From IMG/VR virus record IMGVR_UViG_3300010883_014311, positions 1 through 21,102 of that record: DNA of 21,102 bases. One strand, given 5' to 3'. The notes beneath the pieces are model-generated. The model was not told the DNA's origin, searched no databases, and worked only from the letters and a program-made list of their open reading frames with translations. Of this stretch, positions 8,634-20,987 are shown in pieces. The position numbers and the translations under genes were made by a program. How positions within the stretch are numbered: position 1 is the stretch's first letter; every line of letters starts with the position of its first letter. This stretch comes from a virus.

Positions 8634-8997
8634 CGCGGCGAAGAAAGAGCAGAAGAAAAATCGTGTTCTCGCGAGGCGGAAAAAATTCCGTTTGGAAGAG
8701 TCAATGAAAAGGCGGCAATTCGACAAAAAAGCCAAGGGTCGAACGATCAAGTTGGCGGAAGAGGCTCCAGTTCCGGGGCGGAACGATCCTTGCCCCCTGC
8801 ACCCCGAACACAAGCTCAAGAAATGCCCACACGGTTGCTTGGATGTTTTCAAGCGGAATCGCTCGCGTCACGCGGGGGACGCAACTATCGTTCGGGTTGA
8901 AGACGGCGACAAGCGTAAGGGAAAAATTGGCACAGAGATTGACCCGGCGGCGGGTGCATTAACCGACTTGGCTCAAATTTCAGGGGACGGATTCTGA
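8626..8997 (+). CDS. Small SEC-C-like metal-binding protein
   Basis: The 123-residue protein starts at ATG 8626, where GGAAGGGG lies 7 bases upstream; a TTG three bases earlier is also in frame. The first 45 residues are extremely basic (Lys/Arg runs, helical). Residues about 48-67 read VPGRNDPCPLHPEHKLKKCP, followed by HGC, which strongly resembles the SEC-C zinc-binding motif (PGRNDPCPCGSGKKYKKCC) known from the SecA C-terminus and many small proteins. Here one Cys is replaced by His or Leu, so metal ligands could be Cys, His, Cys, and Cys. It overlaps the genes on both sides (TGA within eight bases at the start, TGATG at the end). A nucleic-acid or ribosome-linked adaptor role is possible; function unknown. 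Confidence 0.72.
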   Translation: MDDAAKKEQKKNRVLARRKKFRLEESMKRRQFDKKAKGRTIKLAEEAPVPGRNDPCPLHPEHKLKKCPHGCLDVFKRNRSRHAGDATIVRVEDGDKRKGKIGTEIDPAAGALTDLAQISGDGF

Positions 8998-9926
8998 TGG
9001 CGATAACGGATGGCATCGAGACGAAGTTGGGTCCGGGGCATTATCCCTTGGTAGTGTTCATCCGTGCGCATGAATTTCCCGAATTCGTCGCGGACACTGT
9101 TGACGCGATCCGTTATTACACGGAAGGGCCGGAGCCTCTCATCGTCGTCACCGTCGATCGGAACAAGCGGATCGAGGAAGCGATGCGACCGGCCTACCCC
9201 GACCTGCTGTACTACACCTCGCCGAACAACTGCGGGTGGGGTGGTGGTCTGTTTCGCCTGTACTGCGAAGCTGTGACGTGGCTCTGCCAAGAGAAGAAAA
9301 TCAGCTTCGACGTTTTGTGGAACATGGACTACGACCTGATTCCAATCAATCCCGGCTGGGACACCCACTTCGTTAAGAGGTTCCAGAACAAGCCGAGAAT
9401 TGGTCAACTGGGCAGGTACAACCCCAACTCGGCGTTCTGGAAACGCCGGATGCGAATGCAGTTGAACAAGCTGAAAAAGTGCTTTTCTGACCACGGGAAA
9501 CAGTGGCCGAAAAACTATAAGACCGGGGATCACGTCGCCGGAGCCTGTGGCGTATTCAAAGGCCAGTGCGTCGCGCAGATGCTTTCGCTGGGCCTGCTGG
9601 AGAGACCCTTCCGGGACTTGGGTGCCGTCTGTTCTCTGGCCGATGACCCGATGCTCTCCCTGATGGTCTCCGCCGCAGGGTATGAGTTCAAGGAAATGGG
9701 TGAAAAGGCCTACATCAAGTGGCGGATGGAAGAGGACTATCGCAAGCTACCGGGAAAGGGGTATATTCTCTACCACCCGACGAAGCTGGTTCCGGGCAAT
9801 CAGCCCTACTCAGCGAAGAGCGAACTGAAATGTCGGAATTTCTTTCGTAAGCTACGATCGCAAGAGCCGATCAAGATGCTGAGGGAGTCGCCGAGTACGG
9901 GTAAGCCGAACTCAATCCTTTGTTGA
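8997..9926 (+). CDS. GT-A-fold glycosyltransferase
   Basis: The 309-residue protein starts at ATG 8997, overlapping the previous TGA by one base. The GT-A pattern is visible: an N-terminal beta-alpha Rossmann part (YPLVVFIRAHEFPEFVADTV), VVTVDRN, NNCGWGGG, and the metal-binding motif MDYD (Asp111-Tyr-Asp113) in FDVLWNMDYDLIPINPGWD. Further on are GACGVFKG and ADDPMLSLMVSAAGYEFKEMG, matching the acceptor-side ED/DD element of such enzymes. It would transfer a sugar from a nucleotide donor with a divalent metal. No membrane segment is seen, so it acts in the cytoplasm on a soluble or virion-protein acceptor, or on a lipid-linked one. The end of the protein is basic. Confidence 0.7.
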   Translation: MAITDGIETKLGPGHYPLVVFIRAHEFPEFVADTVDAIRYYTEGPEPLIVVTVDRNKRIEEAMRPAYPDLLYYTSPNNCGWGGGLFRLYCEAVTWLCQEKKISFDVLWNMDYDLIPINPGWDTHFVKRFQNKPRIGQLGRYNPNSAFWKRRMRMQLNKLKKCFSDHGKQWPKNYKTGDHVAGACGVFKGQCVAQMLSLGLLERPFRDLGAVCSLADDPMLSLMVSAAGYEFKEMGEKAYIKWRMEEDYRKLPGKGYILYHPTKLVPGNQPYSAKSELKCRNFFRKLRSQEPIKMLRESPSTGKPNSILC

Positions 9927-10936: not shown

Positions 10937-11373
10937 AGGAAACAAAGTCTGCGGACGCTACCCCGATCACCTGTCTCTGTCTGGAAACATTCCCTGACGG
11001 TGATCGGCCTTACGTCCACCTGACTCCGCCCTGCACGCTTGACGTTGAAGGCCGCACGGGGCCGTCCAGCATGGTCTGCTGTAACAAGTGCTGGAAAGAC
11101 ATGCCGATGTTTCAGCGGGCCGCTCTGTCCCTGCTGACAACCCCCACGAAAGACGGGGGCCTTGCTCTCGGCGCTCTGGCTCATGAGAGGTTTTGGCCGG
11201 ACTTACTTCGGACGTTCTCTGACAAGCCTTCTCCGTTGCCACCAGAGCCTGATGGCGATTATTTTGAGCAGGAAGAGCATTCACCCCCGATGAGTGCTAT
11301 TCCGGGTGATGAGGTGACAAGTATGATCGATCGACGGAACGCGGCTCGTGCCGGGGGGAAACTTGATGGCTGA
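10933..11373 (+). CDS. Cys-containing unknown protein with PPM motif
   Basis: The 146-residue protein starts at ATG 10933, overlapping the previous TGA; AAGGGGAG lies upstream. The same frame is open to 10612, but that part shadows the promoter and previous gene. Cysteines cluster in CLCLETF, PPCTLDV and MVCCNKCWKDM, suggesting a metal site or redox centre. The second half turns acidic and Pro-rich (PSPLPPEPDGDYFEQEEHSPPMSAIPGDE). The SPPM segment (bases 11281-11292) recurs in other proteins of this window and is discussed as a finding. The end overlaps the next gene by 8 bases. No family recognised. Confidence 0.72.
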   Translation: MKETKSADATPITCLCLETFPDGDRPYVHLTPPCTLDVEGRTGPSSMVCCNKCWKDMPMFQRAALSLLTTPTKDGGLALGALAHERFWPDLLRTFSDKPSPLPPEPDGDYFEQEEHSPPMSAIPGDEVTSMIDRRNAARAGGKLDG

Positions 11374-11749
11374 GATTCATATTCCGGGGCCGGGGCCGGA
11401 AGGCTTCAGAGTCCACATCCTGCGGACTGACACCGAGCAGGTTCTGATCGCTTTCGGTGTGGAGATCACGCACATTCCGATGCCTCCTCCGGTTGCATGG
11501 CAACTGGCGATGGCGATTCTGGAGAAGTGTCAAGAATTGGAGCCAGACTCCAAGCTCCAAATCCGTAAGCCATCCATCTCGCTACAGGTCTTCGAGAGGA
11601 AAGTTCTGCTCGAAGTGCGTAAAGCGACCAGCGAACTCCTGCTCTCACCTTCGGAAGGTCGTGAGTTGGTTTTTCGTTTGTGCCATGTTGCGGCGAGAGC
11701 CGTAGGCCGTGACCTGCCCGGCGACTTTCCACTGGAGAATCAGGCGTGA
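11366..11749 (+). CDS. Unknown 127-residue protein
   Basis: ATG 11366 is preferred because GGGGGGAA lies 5 bases upstream. The protein appears to be a compact alpha/beta domain: VHILRTDTEQVLIAFGVEITHIPMPP, a helix VAWQLAMAILEKCQEL, a second strand set (SISLQVFERKVLLEVRK) and a C-terminal helix. It shares a loose pattern with the protein at 6767 but identity is low. No family recognised. It overlaps both neighbours (8 bases at its start, GTGA at its end), so it is translationally coupled. Confidence 0.72.
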   Translation: MAEIHIPGPGPEGFRVHILRTDTEQVLIAFGVEITHIPMPPPVAWQLAMAILEKCQELEPDSKLQIRKPSISLQVFERKVLLEVRKATSELLLSPSEGRELVFRLCHVAARAVGRDLPGDFPLENQA

Positions 11750-12234
11750 ACGTCGAGCAACTTACGACGGTCCCAGACGGCCTTCGCGCCATGTACGTTG
11801 TTGTCGTGCGAGAAGATAGCGAGCAGGGCTATTCTACTCACATCATCGATCGGCTGGTCGACGCGGTCTGCATTCTCAATCTGGACGCGAACGACATTCG
11901 CACCACACCCGGCGAGAGGCAGGGAGCAAAGCGAGGACGTAAGTCCAAAATTGTTGGTGTCATAATGGAAGGGGCGGGGGAGCCTAAGCCTGCGTCCTTG
12001 GCGACTGGTTGGTTTGAGAGGCTGTACGGGGACGACTTGATTCAAGCGAAGTTTATCGGATACACCCGATCGGACCACACGGTCGACGAAATCATGATGG
12101 CCGTCGTTAAGGACAAGGACGAGGGTGTGGAGTTCCCAGAGGGGGAAGAAACCCCCACGATGCGTCAGACTCGGCGTTACTGGGCGAAGGTCACTCGTGA
12201 GGCTTTGGACGGGATCATAGGGCATGAAGATTGA
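11746..12234 (+). CDS. Unknown 162-residue protein
   Basis: GTG 11746 overlaps the previous TGA (GTGA), and GGAG lies 8 bases upstream. The protein looks like a folded alpha/beta domain (MYVVVVREDSEQGY; HIIDRLVDAVCILNLDAND) with a basic loop (ERQGAKRGRKSK), then KIVGVIMEG and a C-terminal helical tail with an acidic EFPEGEETP linker. No family recognised. It overlaps the glycosyltransferase at 12224 by 11 bases. Confidence 0.72.
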   Translation: MNVEQLTTVPDGLRAMYVVVVREDSEQGYSTHIIDRLVDAVCILNLDANDIRTTPGERQGAKRGRKSKIVGVIMEGAGEPKPASLATGWFERLYGDDLIQAKFIGYTRSDHTVDEIMMAVVKDKDEGVEFPEGEETPTMRQTRRYWAKVTREALDGIIGHED

Positions 12235-12925
12235 AGCCGTGGTTGTGTGTCGGGACTACGCGGATTTTCTCCACTACACTCTGCCGTGGACAAAGCAAGC
12301 TGTCGACAACTTGGTCATCGTCACGAGCGAAGAGGATGAGGAGACTCAGAGGGTCTGTGAGTTCCATGACGTCCGCTGCCTTGTGACGGACGCTTTCGAG
12401 AAATACCGGGGGGAGTTAAACAAGGGGGCCGCGATCAACGAGGGGCTGTCAACTCTCGACCGCAATGACTGGCTGCTTATTCTTGACGCGGATATCCTGA
12501 TTCCGCCCCACGTTCGTCCCTTCCTCGAATCTTCCGCGTTGAACACGAAAAGTCTGTACGGCGTGGATCGGCGGAACTGTGACGGTAAAGTGATCTTGGA
12601 TGAAGTCACGGGAGGATCATGGGGCTTCGATCACCTACCTCTGCTGGACCGTGTCAGCATTTACGGTGGTTATCCCCCCGTGGGTTACTTCCAGTTGTTT
12701 CATTCGTGCGAACACGGACACGCACCTTGGTACGATGAACTCTACCCCTACGCAGACAAGACGGACGCGGTTTTCGCGAAGAGCTTCAACATGCGGGGTT
12801 ACCTGAAAACATGGGTGGTTCATCTGGATAACGGCGGTCACGTCGGTGGTCAGAACTGGAAGGGCCGGGAGTCTCCCCGTTTCGTGACCAAAGCGGAAGT
12901 CACGCTTGACTTGAAAAAAGAGTAA
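12224..12925 (+). CDS. GT2-like glycosyltransferase
   Basis: The 233-residue protein is a small GT-A enzyme. It begins IEAVVVCRDYADFLHYTL (nucleotide-binding strand and helix), then LVIVTSEEDEET, a KGAAINEGL turn typical of GT2 enzymes, and the metal-binding DxD in WLLILDADILIPP (Asp88-Ala-Asp90). Later W/G motifs (GGSWGFDHLPLL, GYFQLFHS) are consistent with an acceptor pocket. It would add one sugar from a nucleotide donor in the cytoplasm. It is followed by the Pro/Gly-rich protein and a sulfotransferase, a context that suggests modification of a phage product. No membrane helix is seen. Confidence 0.74.
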   Translation: MKIEAVVVCRDYADFLHYTLPWTKQAVDNLVIVTSEEDEETQRVCEFHDVRCLVTDAFEKYRGELNKGAAINEGLSTLDRNDWLLILDADILIPPHVRPFLESSALNTKSLYGVDRRNCDGKVILDEVTGGSWGFDHLPLLDRVSIYGGYPPVGYFQLFHSCEHGHAPWYDELYPYADKTDAVFAKSFNMRGYLKTWVVHLDNGGHVGGQNWKGRESPRFVTKAEVTLDLKKE

Positions 12926-12940
12926 GGATAGGATTCGTCC

Positions 12941-13933
12941 ATGTCAGTTCCCCCGAACCGTATTGCGAAGTATCTGGATCAGCAGCCGGATGGAGACGAG
13001 AGGTTTCCTTACCCTTCGCCCCCGATGCCGATGCCCGCACCTCTGATGCCACCCCCGATAGCCCATCCGCCGCAACAACTACCGCCGCAGTTCACGCCGG
13101 GTGCGCCGTTGATGCCGTTCCAGCCTCATTTTTTTGCACCACCCCCGGTTGCGCCTCCGCAGGCTTATCAGCCACCTGAGTTGCAGGCGGCTCCCCCGGA
13201 CCAACATCCACCACCGCCTTACGGCGGTGACGGCGGGGGCGGTGACGGCGGGGGCGGTGACGGCGGGGGCGGTGACGGCGGTGACTGGAGCTTCCCCCCT
13301 TCCCCTCCGATGGGTCGCGGAAAGTTGGCGAATCCTTTTGTCACTCGTCACGTCACGACGGCGATGGTGGAAAACCCGATGTACGTCGTCGCTACGGTTC
13401 CGTTTTACGGTGAGAACGAAATTGCGTTGTGCAGCAACGCGGGCAACCCCCCACCAATTTGCATCGCTTATTGGGTCTTCCCTGTATCCTACGTGGAGAT
13501 TCAGGTCCGCCAATACTTTCACCCTCCCGGACCCTTTGCTACAGTTCCAGATAACGCTGCTGGCTGGCCGGATCATGATGAGGCAACCTTTCGCAAAATG
13601 GGTTGGCTGGCAAGCCCAGCCACAACTCACCGCTGGCCGGTATTCCAGTACGACCCCGCCGGGCAGATGGTCAACTTCGACGCATCCATTCTCGACACGC
13701 CTTACTCTGACTGGCGTCTGGGAACGGTAGATCGTTATGTACAACTGATAGGCGACGTTGTTGACAAACTCGCGGAAGACAGCCGGAAGATGTGGTTGCA
13801 TCCACCTTGGCTGAAGGGGATGCCGATGATGTATGCACCCTTCACCGGCCTGCCGTCTCTCTACTCGCAGGCTTTGGAGTACGGTTCTCCTCTCGTCTGT
13901 GCAACTCCCGGTTGGGAGAATATCGATGAGTAA
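12941..13933 (+). CDS. Pro/Gly-rich protein with GDGGG repeats, unknown
   Basis: The 330-residue protein starts at ATG 12941, with TAGGA 7 bases upstream. Residues 20-95 are very rich in Pro, with Met, Gln and Ala (MPMPAPLMPPP and similar). A Gly/Asp repeat follows, near residues 95-115. From about residue 125 the protein seems folded, with many aromatic residues (YVVATVPFYGENEIALC, CIAYWVFPVSYVEIQVRQYF), and a helical or loop-rich end. The disordered half resembles linkers or fibre-type extensions of virion proteins, but I find no recognised domain. It lies between a glycosyltransferase and a sulfotransferase, so it is a candidate acceptor for their products. That is inference from neighbourhood and composition only. 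Confidence 0.72.
   Translation: MSVPPNRIAKYLDQQPDGDERFPYPSPPMPMPAPLMPPPIAHPPQQLPPQFTPGAPLMPFQPHFFAPPPVAPPQAYQPPELQAAPPDQHPPPPYGGDGGGGDGGGGDGGGGDGGDWSFPPSPPMGRGKLANPFVTRHVTTAMVENPMYVVATVPFYGENEIALCSNAGNPPPICIAYWVFPVSYVEIQVRQYFHPPGPFATVPDNAAGWPDHDEATFRKMGWLASPATTHRWPVFQYDPAGQMVNFDASILDTPYSDWRLGTVDRYVQLIGDVVDKLAEDSRKMWLHPPWLKGMPMMYAPFTGLPSLYSQALEYGSPLVCATPGWENIDE
13223..13285 (+). repeat. Tandem 15-base repeat encoding GDGGG
   Basis: The unit GGTGACGGCGGGGGC is repeated exactly three times (13226-13270), then a partial, varied copy ends the array at 13285. It keeps the reading frame and encodes a Gly/Asp linker, five residues per unit. Identical units suggest recent slippage, so copy number may vary between relatives. 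Confidence 0.9.
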
Positions 13934-14651
13934 ACGCCGGGCGGTAATCCTTTCGAGTGTTCGCACCGGCTCAACGTGGTTGGGTGAGACGCTGGGACAA
14001 CATCCCGCTATCACTTACGACGAGGAGTTGTTGTTGGAAGGCCCAACGGTCGCGGGCAACACAGGGCCTGCCGTCAAACAGGCTTACGACGCAGACGAGG
14101 CTTGGAATTACATTCACAGTTTCGTGGACATGGCGACGACGTCATGGCATTTGTGGAAGCTGCAAAGCTACCAAGCGTTGGACCCCCCAATTATGGGTTT
14201 CACCGAGCGACTGGCTGCGGACAAGAAATTGGCTGTCATCTTCCTGCGAAGGGAAAACCTGTTTCACTGGTTCACGTCGATCAAGGTCAGTGAAAAGTTG
14301 AAGGTCTATACGAAGCGTGTTGGTGACGACCTTCCTGAAGTGGAGCCTTTCGAGATTGACGGCGATGAAATCGAACACGCCATGAAAGCGGAGTTGGCGT
14401 GGTGGGAGTTGGTCCATGACCTGTTTTCTTCACGACCCTGCTACATCGAAGCCTCTTACGAAATGATGTGCCACGACTACGAGGGTGAGTCGGCGAGGAT
14501 CATGCGGGAGATGCAGTTGAACGCGGTTTATGTGCAGACTCGATCGTTGAAGATGCAGACTCGTGACCCGAAGAGGTTGGTCACGAATTACGCTGATCTG
14601 TGCGTTCGGTTCTCACTGACCGAGTTTGCGAAGCACGGCTTCTATGGCTGA
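13926..14651 (+). CDS. Sulfotransferase (PAPS-dependent, Stf0/NodH-like)
   Basis: The 241-residue protein starts at ATG 13926, overlapping the previous gene by 8 bases, with GGGAGAA upstream. The 5'-phosphosulfate-binding loop is ILSSVRTGSTWLGE (residues 8-21), the classical sulfotransferase P-loop-like pattern. The 3'-phosphate region is VIFLRRENLFHWFTSIKVS (residues 104-122), with an Arg and a Ser in the expected places. The C-terminal part with SYEMMCHDYEGESARI and VTNYADLCVRF resembles the acceptor-side helices of bacterial Stf0/NodH-type enzymes. It would move sulfate from PAPS to a sugar hydroxyl in the cytoplasm. Its direct link to a glycosyltransferase and a repeat-rich protein is suggestive. 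Uncommon in phages as far as I know. Confidence 0.72.
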   Translation: MSKRRAVILSSVRTGSTWLGETLGQHPAITYDEELLLEGPTVAGNTGPAVKQAYDADEAWNYIHSFVDMATTSWHLWKLQSYQALDPPIMGFTERLAADKKLAVIFLRRENLFHWFTSIKVSEKLKVYTKRVGDDLPEVEPFEIDGDEIEHAMKAELAWWELVHDLFSSRPCYIEASYEMMCHDYEGESARIMREMQLNAVYVQTRSLKMQTRDPKRLVTNYADLCVRFSLTEFAKHGFYG

Positions 14652-14946
14652 ATTTATCGACCCGGAGAGGATTCGGCGGCTTTACCACTTTTTGGCGGAG
14701 AAGGGGGCAGAGGTTCCCCCTGAAGAGTTGGCGGCGCAGATAAAGCTGTTTTTCACGAAGGTGCAAGACGAGCTTGCGGTTGAAGGTGTCTGGTGGACGG
14801 CGTTGGAGTTGATCGCGTATTGCGAGCAACCGATCGTTATGACGGCCCTTCGCGCACACGCGGATTTTCGGAAAGAAAAAGAGGTAAGTTGGCAGGTGTA
14901 CGTTGACGTAATCACATCACTTGAGCGGGGAAAGTTTAAGCCATGA
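14644..14946 (+). CDS. Small helical protein, unknown
   Basis: The 100-residue protein starts at ATG 14644, overlapping the sulfotransferase by 8 bases; the ribosome-binding site is weak, so it is probably translated by coupling. It is almost entirely alpha-helical by pattern (IRRLYHFLAEKGAEVPPEEL, AQIKLFFTKVQDELAVEG, WTALELIAYCEQPIVMTAL). Its end overlaps ThyX by four bases (ATGA). No family recognised. Confidence 0.68.
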   Translation: MAEFIDPERIRRLYHFLAEKGAEVPPEELAAQIKLFFTKVQDELAVEGVWWTALELIAYCEQPIVMTALRAHADFRKEKEVSWQVYVDVITSLERGKFKP

Positions 14947-16133
14947 CGGAAGCACACGAGTTACATGCGGCGACGATGAAAAAACCAGAATACGCCATGA
15001 TGCCGGATGACGAGATACTGTCACTCGCGAAGTGTCTCGACCCGGACGCCTTGAAACGTCATCACGAAGTTGAGCAACTGCGGTGGAAGGTCTTCCCGGC
15101 CTTGAGTGAAGGGTTTGTTACCTTGGTCGACGTGATGGGTTCGGATGCGGCGGTCGTCCAAGCGGCTCGCGTCAGCTACGGAGAGGGGACGAAAAAAGCC
15201 AGTTCCAACGAGGGGTTGATCCGCTACTTACTCCGCAACCGACACACGACTCCGTTTGAAATGGCGGAAGTGAAGTTGCTGGTCAAGGTTCCGATGGACC
15301 TTTGGCGTCAATGGATTCGTCACCGGACGGCCAACGTCAACGAGTATAGCACGCGGTACTCTGTCGCCATCGACGAGACCGACACGACGGAACCTGATGC
15401 TTGGCGGGCGCAGGCAGGGTCGGCGAACAAGCAAGGCTCCGGGGGGATGATAAAAGTGTGGCCCGAAGGGATGGACGAGGAGCAGACGATTGCGTATGTC
15501 AGAAAAACCATCCCTTCGCTTGCGGGGGATGATATCGAGATTCAGTGTGACGAAGCTGGAGTGGTGCATTGCGGTGGATACGCAATCACATCCCCCGGAC
15601 ATTATCTGACGATGAGGGAGTCACACCTTCAACGGCTTACCCGCGAAGTCTACGAGGAGAGGGTAAATAAGTTCGGCGTCGCGCGTGAGCAGGCTCGGAA
15701 AGACCTGCCCCTCTCGACCTACACGATGGCCTACTGGAAAAACGACCTGCACAATCTGCTGCACTTCCTTGGCCTGCGAATGGACCCACACGCGCAACTG
15801 GAAATCAGGGAGTTCGCGACGATCATCGGGGAAGAGATCGTTGCACCCTTGTTCCCGGCGGCGTGGGACGCCTTCGAGAAGTACCGACGCCAATCGACGT
15901 TCGTGAGTGGACCCTGCCGGGATGTTCTCGCTGCGATGCAGAAGCACTACAGCGGTGACGACTGTCACTGCGTGGAAGGTTCTTACTCGGACACGGCGTT
16001 TGAGGCAGCCACTGAGATCGCGTTTCCTGCGTGGATGAGGAAAGACGACGATGGAAACCTGAAGCCCCACCGTGAACGTGAGGAAGTTCGTTCGACGCTC
16101 ACCAGCCTTGGTCTGCTGTCTGCTGGGGGGTAG
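14943..16133 (+). CDS. thyX: Flavin-dependent thymidylate synthase (ThyX), enlarged
   Basis: ThyX makes dTMP from dUMP using methylene-tetrahydrofolate, NADPH and FAD. ATG 14943 overlaps the previous TGA, with GGGG upstream. The signature is RHRTANVNEYSTRYS (residues 126-140), close to the family RHRxxSxNxxSxRY pattern with Ala for Ser. HTTPFE (101-106) and REQARKDLP (248-256) followed by NDLHNLLHFLGLRMDPHAQL (267-286) also match. At 396 residues it is much longer than typical ThyX (about 220-270): extra sequence lies between the signature and REQAR (about 180-228) and in a C-terminal extension (about 318-396) with CHC and acidic runs. The enzyme boosts thymidine supply for phage replication. 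Confidence 0.93.
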   Translation: MTEAHELHAATMKKPEYAMMPDDEILSLAKCLDPDALKRHHEVEQLRWKVFPALSEGFVTLVDVMGSDAAVVQAARVSYGEGTKKASSNEGLIRYLLRNRHTTPFEMAEVKLLVKVPMDLWRQWIRHRTANVNEYSTRYSVAIDETDTTEPDAWRAQAGSANKQGSGGMIKVWPEGMDEEQTIAYVRKTIPSLAGDDIEIQCDEAGVVHCGGYAITSPGHYLTMRESHLQRLTREVYEERVNKFGVAREQARKDLPLSTYTMAYWKNDLHNLLHFLGLRMDPHAQLEIREFATIIGEEIVAPLFPAAWDAFEKYRRQSTFVSGPCRDVLAAMQKHYSGDDCHCVEGSYSDTAFEAATEIAFPAWMRKDDDGNLKPHREREEVRSTLTSLGLLSAGG

Positions 16134-19940: not shown

Positions 19941-20097
19941 AACAACTTCGTTCGGTGGTGACGATGATGAGCTTGAAGACGAGGAGCTTATCGACGAAGA
20001 GGAAGAGCTTGAAGAGGATGACGAGCTTGAAGATGGTGAAGAGAGCGAAGACGATTACAACGAAGACCGCTTTCCCGATGACGAGGATGAATGGTGA
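19927..20097 (+). CDS. Very acidic 56-residue protein
   Basis: ATG 19927 to TGA 20097 gives a 56-residue protein in which about two thirds of residues are Asp or Glu. ELED, LEDE, EEEL and EDDEL form an imperfect repeat, and the end is FPDDEDEW. The ORF falls below common length cut-offs. It overlaps both neighbours (14 bases upstream, one base downstream), so it is coupled. Such a polyanion could mimic DNA or bind basic proteins, for example the minus-strand Lys/Arg-rich product; this is inference. The ribosome-binding site is weak. Confidence 0.6.
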   Translation: MTIGETTSFGGDDDELEDEELIDEEEELEEDDELEDGEESEDDYNEDRFPDDEDEW

Positions 20098-20987
20098 TGG
20101 CTAAGAGGCAGATCATCCAGATTTGCGGCAAGGGTTACTCCGGGTCGTCCATCACCAACATGCTGTTCGATTCAGTCACCGGCGTTCGCGCGTTGGGAGA
20201 GTTCAACGGCAAAGCGAAGAACGACGTCTTCCCGTACCAACCTGACATTCCTTGCTACGCCGGGTGTGAGCGTTGTGATTTCTTCGACGGGGTTCACGAG
20301 AGCAAGACGCCTTACGGGGAGATGTTCGATCGATACCCGGATGCAAAGGTGCTGGTGGACTCGACCAAGCTCTGGCGTGTACTGGAAAAGTTCTCCAAGG
20401 CAGAGCCGTACTACGACTACATCCGCGTCCGCATCGTGAAGCTCCCGCACGCTTGGCTGCATTCGTCGATGACTCACAACGGCTGGGGCTGGGATGATCA
20501 GCCTCGAATGGAGAGCTTGATCAACAATTGGTTTGGCGTGCATCTCACGCAAGTCCCGACCCTGACGACGATCCTCTACCGCGACTTTATCGCTCAGCCT
20601 GATTTCTGGCTGGCTCATTGCATGGGTCTTCTGGGGTGGCCGAGAATCTATCGACGAGAACATTGGTGGCAAACCTCTTCGCACATCATCTCTGGCAACC
20701 TCGCTCTGAGGAACCAACAGACAAACCCAGAGTTCTTTGACACGGCTGACGCCGGGAAGTATCAGGGCCTGAAGCACACGCTGTTTGTGGACCGCGCGTG
20801 GCGAGAGGACAAAGACTTCCTCAAAGTCGTCGCCCGCCTCTACGCGAAGAACTGGGACGAATACGAGGAACGTCTCAAAGACGTCGGCCTCTTCAACATG
20901 GATATGCTGGTGGACGATCTGGTGACCGACATGAAACTCTCGGATCGATTGCCCGCCGTACAAGGGGAGCCTGTTTTCGATGGATGA
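20097..20987 (+). CDS. Sulfotransferase-like protein
   Basis: The 296-residue protein most likely starts at ATG 20097, overlapping the previous TGA, with GAGGA 9 bases upstream; in-frame ATG 20091 and GTG 20094 are alternatives. The start QIICQ-type strand leads to GKGYSGSSITNMLF (residues 11-24), matching the sulfotransferase phosphosulfate loop. GEFNG (34-38), the Cys group CYAGCERC (53-60) and VLVDSTK (85-91) match the GEl, CsCG-C and DsSK elements of bacterial sulfotransferases. A later Tyr/Trp-rich part (WQTSSHIISGN, LFVDRAWRED) is consistent with the acceptor half. The predicted reaction is PAPS-dependent sulfation of a sugar or small molecule. It differs clearly from the enzyme at 13926, so it is a second, separate gene. 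Confidence 0.65.
   Translation: MAKRQIIQICGKGYSGSSITNMLFDSVTGVRALGEFNGKAKNDVFPYQPDIPCYAGCERCDFFDGVHESKTPYGEMFDRYPDAKVLVDSTKLWRVLEKFSKAEPYYDYIRVRIVKLPHAWLHSSMTHNGWGWDDQPRMESLINNWFGVHLTQVPTLTTILYRDFIAQPDFWLAHCMGLLGWPRIYRREHWWQTSSHIISGNLALRNQQTNPEFFDTADAGKYQGLKHTLFVDRAWREDKDFLKVVARLYAKNWDEYEERLKDVGLFNMDMLVDDLVTDMKLSDRLPAVQGEPVFDG

Follow-up and report, generated by a model that had tools for sequence, protein, structure and literature searches.

A glycosyltransferase and a probable sulfotransferase that may form a sulfated-glycan module in an uncultured phage

Two genes carried by the IMG/VR phage record IMGVR_UViG_3300010883_014311 are candidates for a phage-encoded module that produces a sulfated glycan. 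The window analyzed here is the entire 21,102-bp record, which is probably a fragment of a larger phage genome. One gene (12224..12925), called GT12224, encodes a predicted glycosyltransferase (GT), and the other (13926..14651), called ST13926, encodes a probable sulfotransferase (ST). Between them lies a gene for a Pro/Gly-rich repeat protein (12941..13933), and all three open reading frames were found on the plus strand where the initial annotation had described them as a single cassette. We hold with moderate confidence that GT12224 and ST13926 constitute a sulfated-glycan module, most likely one that decorates virion surface proteins. The fold and family of the GT, the likely fold of the ST, and the recurrent pairing of these two kinds of genes are supported by sequence comparisons, and the two enzymes probably act together. 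What we infer is the identity of the sugar, the action of the ST on the sugar added by the GT, and a virion protein as the acceptor.

The product of GT12224 is 233 amino acids long, and its best Pfam match is Glyco_tranf_2_4 (PF13704; E 3.4e-5), whose score of 24.7 bits falls just under the cut-off of 27.5. A family alignment that started from two sequences, the window GT and the homolog in its nearest relative, was used to scan IMG/VR and revealed 49 further loci with a GT homolog. Among 24 aligned members, residues D88 and D90 of the DADI motif (residues 88-91) are invariant, as are K67, H160, D181, H200, and W212. An AlphaFold2 model computed from this 24-sequence alignment has a predicted local distance difference test (pLDDT) score of 84 and a predicted template modeling score of 0.86. 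Its best match among solved structures is the chondroitin polymerase K4CP (E 2.4e-7), a likeness at the level of the fold, since the window protein is a single short GT domain with 14-18% identity and no glycosaminoglycan synthesis is claimed for it. Many other GT-A enzymes also match, with the PBCV-1 capsid glycosyltransferase among the lower-ranking hits, and among viral structure models the GT matches a glycosyltransferase of the cyanophage S-SRM01 and many Caudovirales GT-A proteins. As modeled, GT12224 is a glycosyltransferase of the GT-A fold, which bears out its initial description as a DxD enzyme. Radical-SAM-like genes were also seen to recur within a few kilobases of GT homologs in several phages (L146 5541, L148 8524, L149 8359, L155 7957, and L156 4, where L numbers denote IMG/VR loci).

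The 241-amino-acid product of ST13926 is probably a sulfotransferase dependent on 3′-phosphoadenosine-5′-phosphosulfate (PAPS), judging from its sequence motifs. The loop SSVRTGSTW, which the initial annotation had noted in this sulfotransferase, lies at residues 10-18 (SSVRTGSTWL, 10-19) and was aligned as the 5′-phosphosulfate-binding (5′-PSB) loop by both Pfam and hhalign. The match to Pfam Sulfotransfer_3 spans residues 7-59 (E 1.7e-4) and scores 22.4 bits against a curated cut-off of 27, and a second scoring (E 6.8e-6, 20.5 bits) was also below the cut-off. When compared to 12 phage sulfotransferases with hhalign, only residues 8-32 aligned (P 2.7e-5), and MAFFT alignments with distant sulfotransferases were unreliable beyond the loop. 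A candidate 3′-phosphate-binding segment, LRRENLFHWFTS, occurs in the expected place at residue 107, and was recognized by eye and aligned by no program. Because single-sequence AlphaFold2 gave a model with a pLDDT of 34, the assignment rests on the 5′-PSB loop and this R..T/S segment. Single-sequence searches found no relative of the ST in phage records, IMG/VR, or GTDB genomes, and no match among PDB sequences.

Evidence that the two enzymes may cooperate comes from other phages. A scan with a large terminase subunit (TerL) alignment identified the nearest relative as G021, an IMG/VR phage of 172,227 bp whose TerL is 48% identical to that of the window. The gene order 647-TerL-portal-HU-7138-GT8997 is kept between the two, and the G021 homolog of the last of these genes is 44-45% identical and occupies the same place relative to the head and packaging block. 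The G021 homolog of GT12224, at about 137.7-138.4 kb, resides within a glycan island of roughly 17 kb that includes several GT2 and GT4 genes, a CAP59-like gene, a GT25 gene, a GT11-like gene, methyltransferases, and a nucleoside diphosphate-sugar epimerase (E 4e-43). About 4 kb from this homolog is a Sulfotransfer_2 gene that scores over the cut-off (E 5.8e-10). The closest relative thus joins a GT and a sulfotransferase in one island, but its sulfotransferase belongs to a different family from that of the window. In 35 records of TerL relatives searched, Sulfotransfer_3 was not found and Sulfotransfer_2 was seen in G021 only, and we therefore rejected the idea that the linkage was conserved by descent in the other TerL relatives.

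The composition of the G021 island, with its GT4, GT25, epimerase, and methyltransferase genes of the lipid or polysaccharide type, raises the alternative that GT12224 and ST13926 alter a host polysaccharide or lipopolysaccharide during infection, and thereby block superinfection or receptor binding. Sulfated extracellular glycans and clusters of GT and ST genes serve bacterial surface functions, and modification of O-antigen by phages is established. We nevertheless regard this explanation as unlikely, given that the genes near the pair include no recognizable membrane anchor, flippase, or lipid-carrier enzyme and that the operon directly follows tail-fiber genes in the best-resolved group of relatives.

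Pairing was counted over 37 records with a GT homolog. A Sulfotransfer_3 gene is present in eight, and in seven of these it is no farther than about 1.2 kb from the GT, on the same strand; three of the records in which the two genes are close are near-copies. Once near-copies are dropped, six of nine STs fall less than 2 kb from the GT, with a P value of about 2e-5 for uniform placement. The ST and GT overlap by 4 bases in L156, beside the portal gene, and L165 has the order ST-GT2-GT with all genes overlapping. In L174, L178, and L182, the ST ends 35, 13, and 18 bases ahead of the GT, respectively, and these three STs are orthologous (50-54% identity). The pairing is therefore found in the window, in G021, in L156, in L165, and in the L174/L178/L182 group. 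Because the same GT family adjoins different types of sulfotransferases in several phage lineages, we propose that the two enzymes act jointly. The initial annotation had suggested that linkage be sought in related phages, and what recurs there is the GT near STs of different kinds; the cassette of GT, repeat protein, and ST is not conserved in the relatives searched.

The spacing of the genes had been the original reason to group them. Indeed, GT12224 and the repeat-protein gene are 15 bases apart, and the ST start overlaps the stop of the repeat-protein gene by 8 bases, such that the separations do not exceed the 15 bases claimed. However, of the window's 24 gene junctions, 18 are equally short (15 bases or less, median -1), and tight spacing was accordingly rejected as evidence for a cassette. 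Closeness of the GT and ST is uninformative about shared function because short junctions are typical throughout the window, and positions 12224-14651 do not delimit a cassette because the unbroken gene run extends to both sides (11348-16133). This tight spacing genome-wide, together with an unrelated middle gene, could also mean that the GT and ST are independent auxiliary neighbors, with the ST sulfating a small molecule or serving sulfur metabolism. Phage adenosine 5′-phosphosulfate (APS) kinases and sulfotransferases are usually reported as auxiliary metabolic genes (AMGs) for sulfur metabolism, which agrees with such a role. We consider independent function quite unlikely in view of the repeated adjacency of one GT family with different sulfotransferases and the presence of a sulfotransferase with a GT in the G021 glycan island.

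APS kinase makes the sulfate donor, and its gene is found near the GT in some relatives. A T4-like group has the gene order tail fiber-ST-GT-APS kinase. Genes for APS kinase that score over the cut-off (E 4e-17 to 3e-14) are located downstream from the GT in L174, L177, and L178, immediately after it in L178 and three genes on in L174, and a partial copy lies near the GT at the contig end of L182. No APS kinase over the cut-off was detected in GT-bearing records that lack an ST. A small cytidylyltransferase-like gene is close by in L174 and L178, and the APS-kinase-like and cytidylyltransferase-like genes are near each other in both (L178 10750-11554, L174 9448-10680). The family PHROG 10255, annotated as "kinase," spans both parts as one fused protein, which hints at a phage pathway for PAPS synthesis or a related nucleotide pathway.

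Upstream of the ST-GT pair in L174, L178, and L182 are genes whose products match tail-spike and tail-fiber families. The STs of these three loci match heparan-sulfate 3-O- and N-sulfotransferases, which act on glucosamine (E 1e-16 to 1e-10 in PDB searches). In PDB, those enzymes are the top hits for the STs that accompany GT homologs, and not for the window ST. A natural reading of these sequences is that sugar sulfation takes place beside tail fibers in this group, and we infer its extension to the window. Because GT homologs are placed beside tail fibers in one group, a virion target fits. The earlier proposal that the phage adds a sulfated sugar to a virion protein therefore gains from the recurrent pairing as far as cooperation of the GT and ST is concerned, and its choice of a virion target is likely and consistent with the tail-fiber placement.

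Several observations weigh against the proposal of a virion-decorating module. The P value calculated for the pairing takes no account of the tendency of glycan genes to group together, and it overstates independence because L174, L178, and L182 form a single lineage. Clustering is in any case common among phage GTs and decorating enzymes. When the presence of an ST was mapped onto the GT tree, five changes were needed, and the well-supported branches force only two. The ST match in L156 is itself weak, and the STs linked to GT relatives are not orthologous to that of the window, for which support is confined to the first ~50 residues at a score below the Pfam cut-off. Deposited phage records hold no relative of either the window GT or the window ST. 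The nearest recognized virion genes, TerL and portal, are 6-8 kb upstream rather than adjoining the pair, and the 21-kb fragment lacks an APS kinase gene and any other gene for PAPS supply. Finally, five other, more divergent marine phages that carry an ST have no GT2 gene within 8 kb.

The repeat protein had been offered as a possible acceptor for the sulfated sugar. Its 330 residues comprise a Pro-rich N-terminal part, a Gly/Asp repeat linker, and a C-terminal part of about 200 amino acids. The tandem repeat that had been noted is indeed present on the plus strand at 13223..13281, where a 15-nt unit occurs in 3.9 copies with 100% matches and encodes low-complexity sequence of the GGDGG type. 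The protein has no family match and no relative in any related locus searched, and its apparent matches were all discounted as Gly-rich low complexity. Neither this protein nor the window's own ST has a counterpart in G021 or in the other relatives searched, whether these were related through TerL or through the GT. Of the 125 residues in the Pro/Gly half, only five are Ser/Thr, and the repeat lacks any Ser, Thr, Asn, or Tyr able to carry a glycan. From its composition and its absence from related loci, the repeat protein probably does not serve as the glycan acceptor and is likely an unrelated or lineage-specific gene that is not essential to the GT-ST pair.

Another way to place the repeat protein in the system would be for ST13926 to sulfate protein tyrosines, for example in this very protein, without any link to a sugar. 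The 15 Tyr among its 330 residues and the translational coupling implied by the 8-base overlap lend this idea some appeal. No homolog pairs this repeat protein with the ST, however, and the linked STs of GT relatives resemble glucosamine sulfotransferases, so that we assign tyrosine sulfation very little probability.

A gene for the thymidylate synthase ThyX lies just downstream from the ST (14943-16133, Pfam E 2.4e-44) and suggests yet another role for the GTs, namely the glycosylation of modified bases in hypermodified DNA. TerL relatives such as DLP_5 also have sugar genes beside TerL. Even so, no hydroxymethylase or other DNA-modifying partner was seen, ThyX is common in phages and is not a base hydroxymethylase, and the GT relatives occur in glycan and tail contexts. 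We also know of no sulfated DNA bases, and DNA hypermodification is in our judgment highly improbable.

Parts of the proposed sulfated-glycan module have precedents. The deposited cyanophage S-SRM01 (MW015081, QPX48310-QPX48314) carries a Sulfotransfer_3 gene with a GT gene near it, as in the window; here the GT is a GT2-methyltransferase fusion about 1 kb away or less. The neighborhood is close to a nucleotide-sugar epimerase in the tail-fiber region, and in 18 of 19 S-SRM01-type cyanophage records the ST and a GT2 are no more than about 2.2 kb apart. A GT-ST neighborhood in phages is thus not unique to the window, although the papers searched do not discuss it. Unlike the window genes, the S-SRM01 GT and ST belong to other lineages (ST identity to the window is 16-22% in the alignments), and the neighborhood has neither a Pro/Gly protein nor an APS kinase.

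Virion glycosylation is established for mycobacteriophages of the Che8 type (Freeman et al. 2023, cited in PMC11256854), in which, according to the available excerpts, phage GTs decorate virion proteins with glycans as we propose here. That system differs in belonging to another host group, and no sulfation is reported in the excerpts of PMC11256854. Sulfotransferase genes described as AMGs are present in OM43 and glacier phages (PMC10580990, PMC8290583), that of OM43 being a Sulfotransfer_3 gene. In the excerpted text of these reports they appear as single genes with no discussion of a GT or APS kinase module, and what they do in phages "remains unclear" (PMC10580990). Phage cysC has been interpreted as serving sulfate assimilation (PMC9789665). 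We found no paper that joins phage APS kinase, sulfotransferase, and GT, although our search covered open-license literature only and is weak evidence of absence. A GT-ST module with its own sulfate-donor supply thus appears to be undescribed. The impression that no well-described phage system of this kind exists holds for the combination, but the pieces were already known.

Besides the genes discussed above, the window contains TerL with an intein, a T4-like portal, an HU-like protein, small genes, GT-like genes, and HNH genes. A second GT2-like gene, GT8997 (8997..9926, plus strand), has a DYDL acidic motif and a weak Glycos_transf_2 match (E 0.034), together with synteny in the nearest relative. 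A gene at 20091..20987 on the plus strand was considered as a possible second sulfotransferase from its P-loop-like GKGYSGSS and LVDSTK(LW) motifs, which by eye resemble those of bacterial sulfotransferases, and was set aside as plausible but without support from any program run. The TerL intein, with its HNH endonuclease, is at 1566-2687 (TerL residues 108-481); it is inserted exactly at Walker A and ends just before TGAIGLGKST. Within ThyX, 240 residues cover 185 Pfam positions, which corresponds to an insertion of at least roughly 55 residues inside the domain. Because two more IMG/VR contigs (L002 and L003) share stretches of 7.0 and 4.7 kb with the window at 99.98%, the phage is present in at least two other samples.

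The G021 lineage is rich in inteins in its packaging genes. Its TerL (L128 834-3533) is interrupted at a different site from that of the window, after residue 413, and its portal (L131 10345-12834, minus strand) has two intein-like inserts. Adjoining the G021 homolog of GT8997 is a gene for a 981-amino-acid protein with a repeated CGCSxGxYxxxYNTVS motif (L131 980-3925, minus strand), which is probably a tail or surface protein.

If the window genes do form a sulfated-glycan module, the DxD site of the GT would serve to transfer a sugar onto an acceptor with a nucleotide-sugar as the donor. The ST would then sulfate that sugar at the expense of PAPS. The PAPS would probably be host-derived in the window phage, and some relatives may draw on their own APS kinase. 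The acceptor would most likely be a virion surface protein, with tail fibers as the best candidate, and the sulfated glycan would change the charge of the particle and its adsorption or shielding.

More tentatively, we put forward the broader possibility that uncultured marine and other phages share an unrecognized sulfated-glycan pathway. It would consist of a GT of this family, at least one ST, and in some phages an APS kinase and a small nucleotidyltransferase that possibly supply PAPS, all encoded directly after tail-fiber genes, and the tail fibers would be sulfated glycoproteins. The recurring GT-ST pair beside tail fibers, with APS kinase linked to it in one group, provides a testable role for the sulfotransferases that turn up repeatedly in phage genomes. 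The charged sulfated glycans could affect adsorption, host choice, or particle shielding. If this is true, phage cysC-like genes now read as AMGs for sulfate assimilation would belong in part to virion decoration, and the counting of phage "sulfur metabolism" genes in ecological surveys would change.

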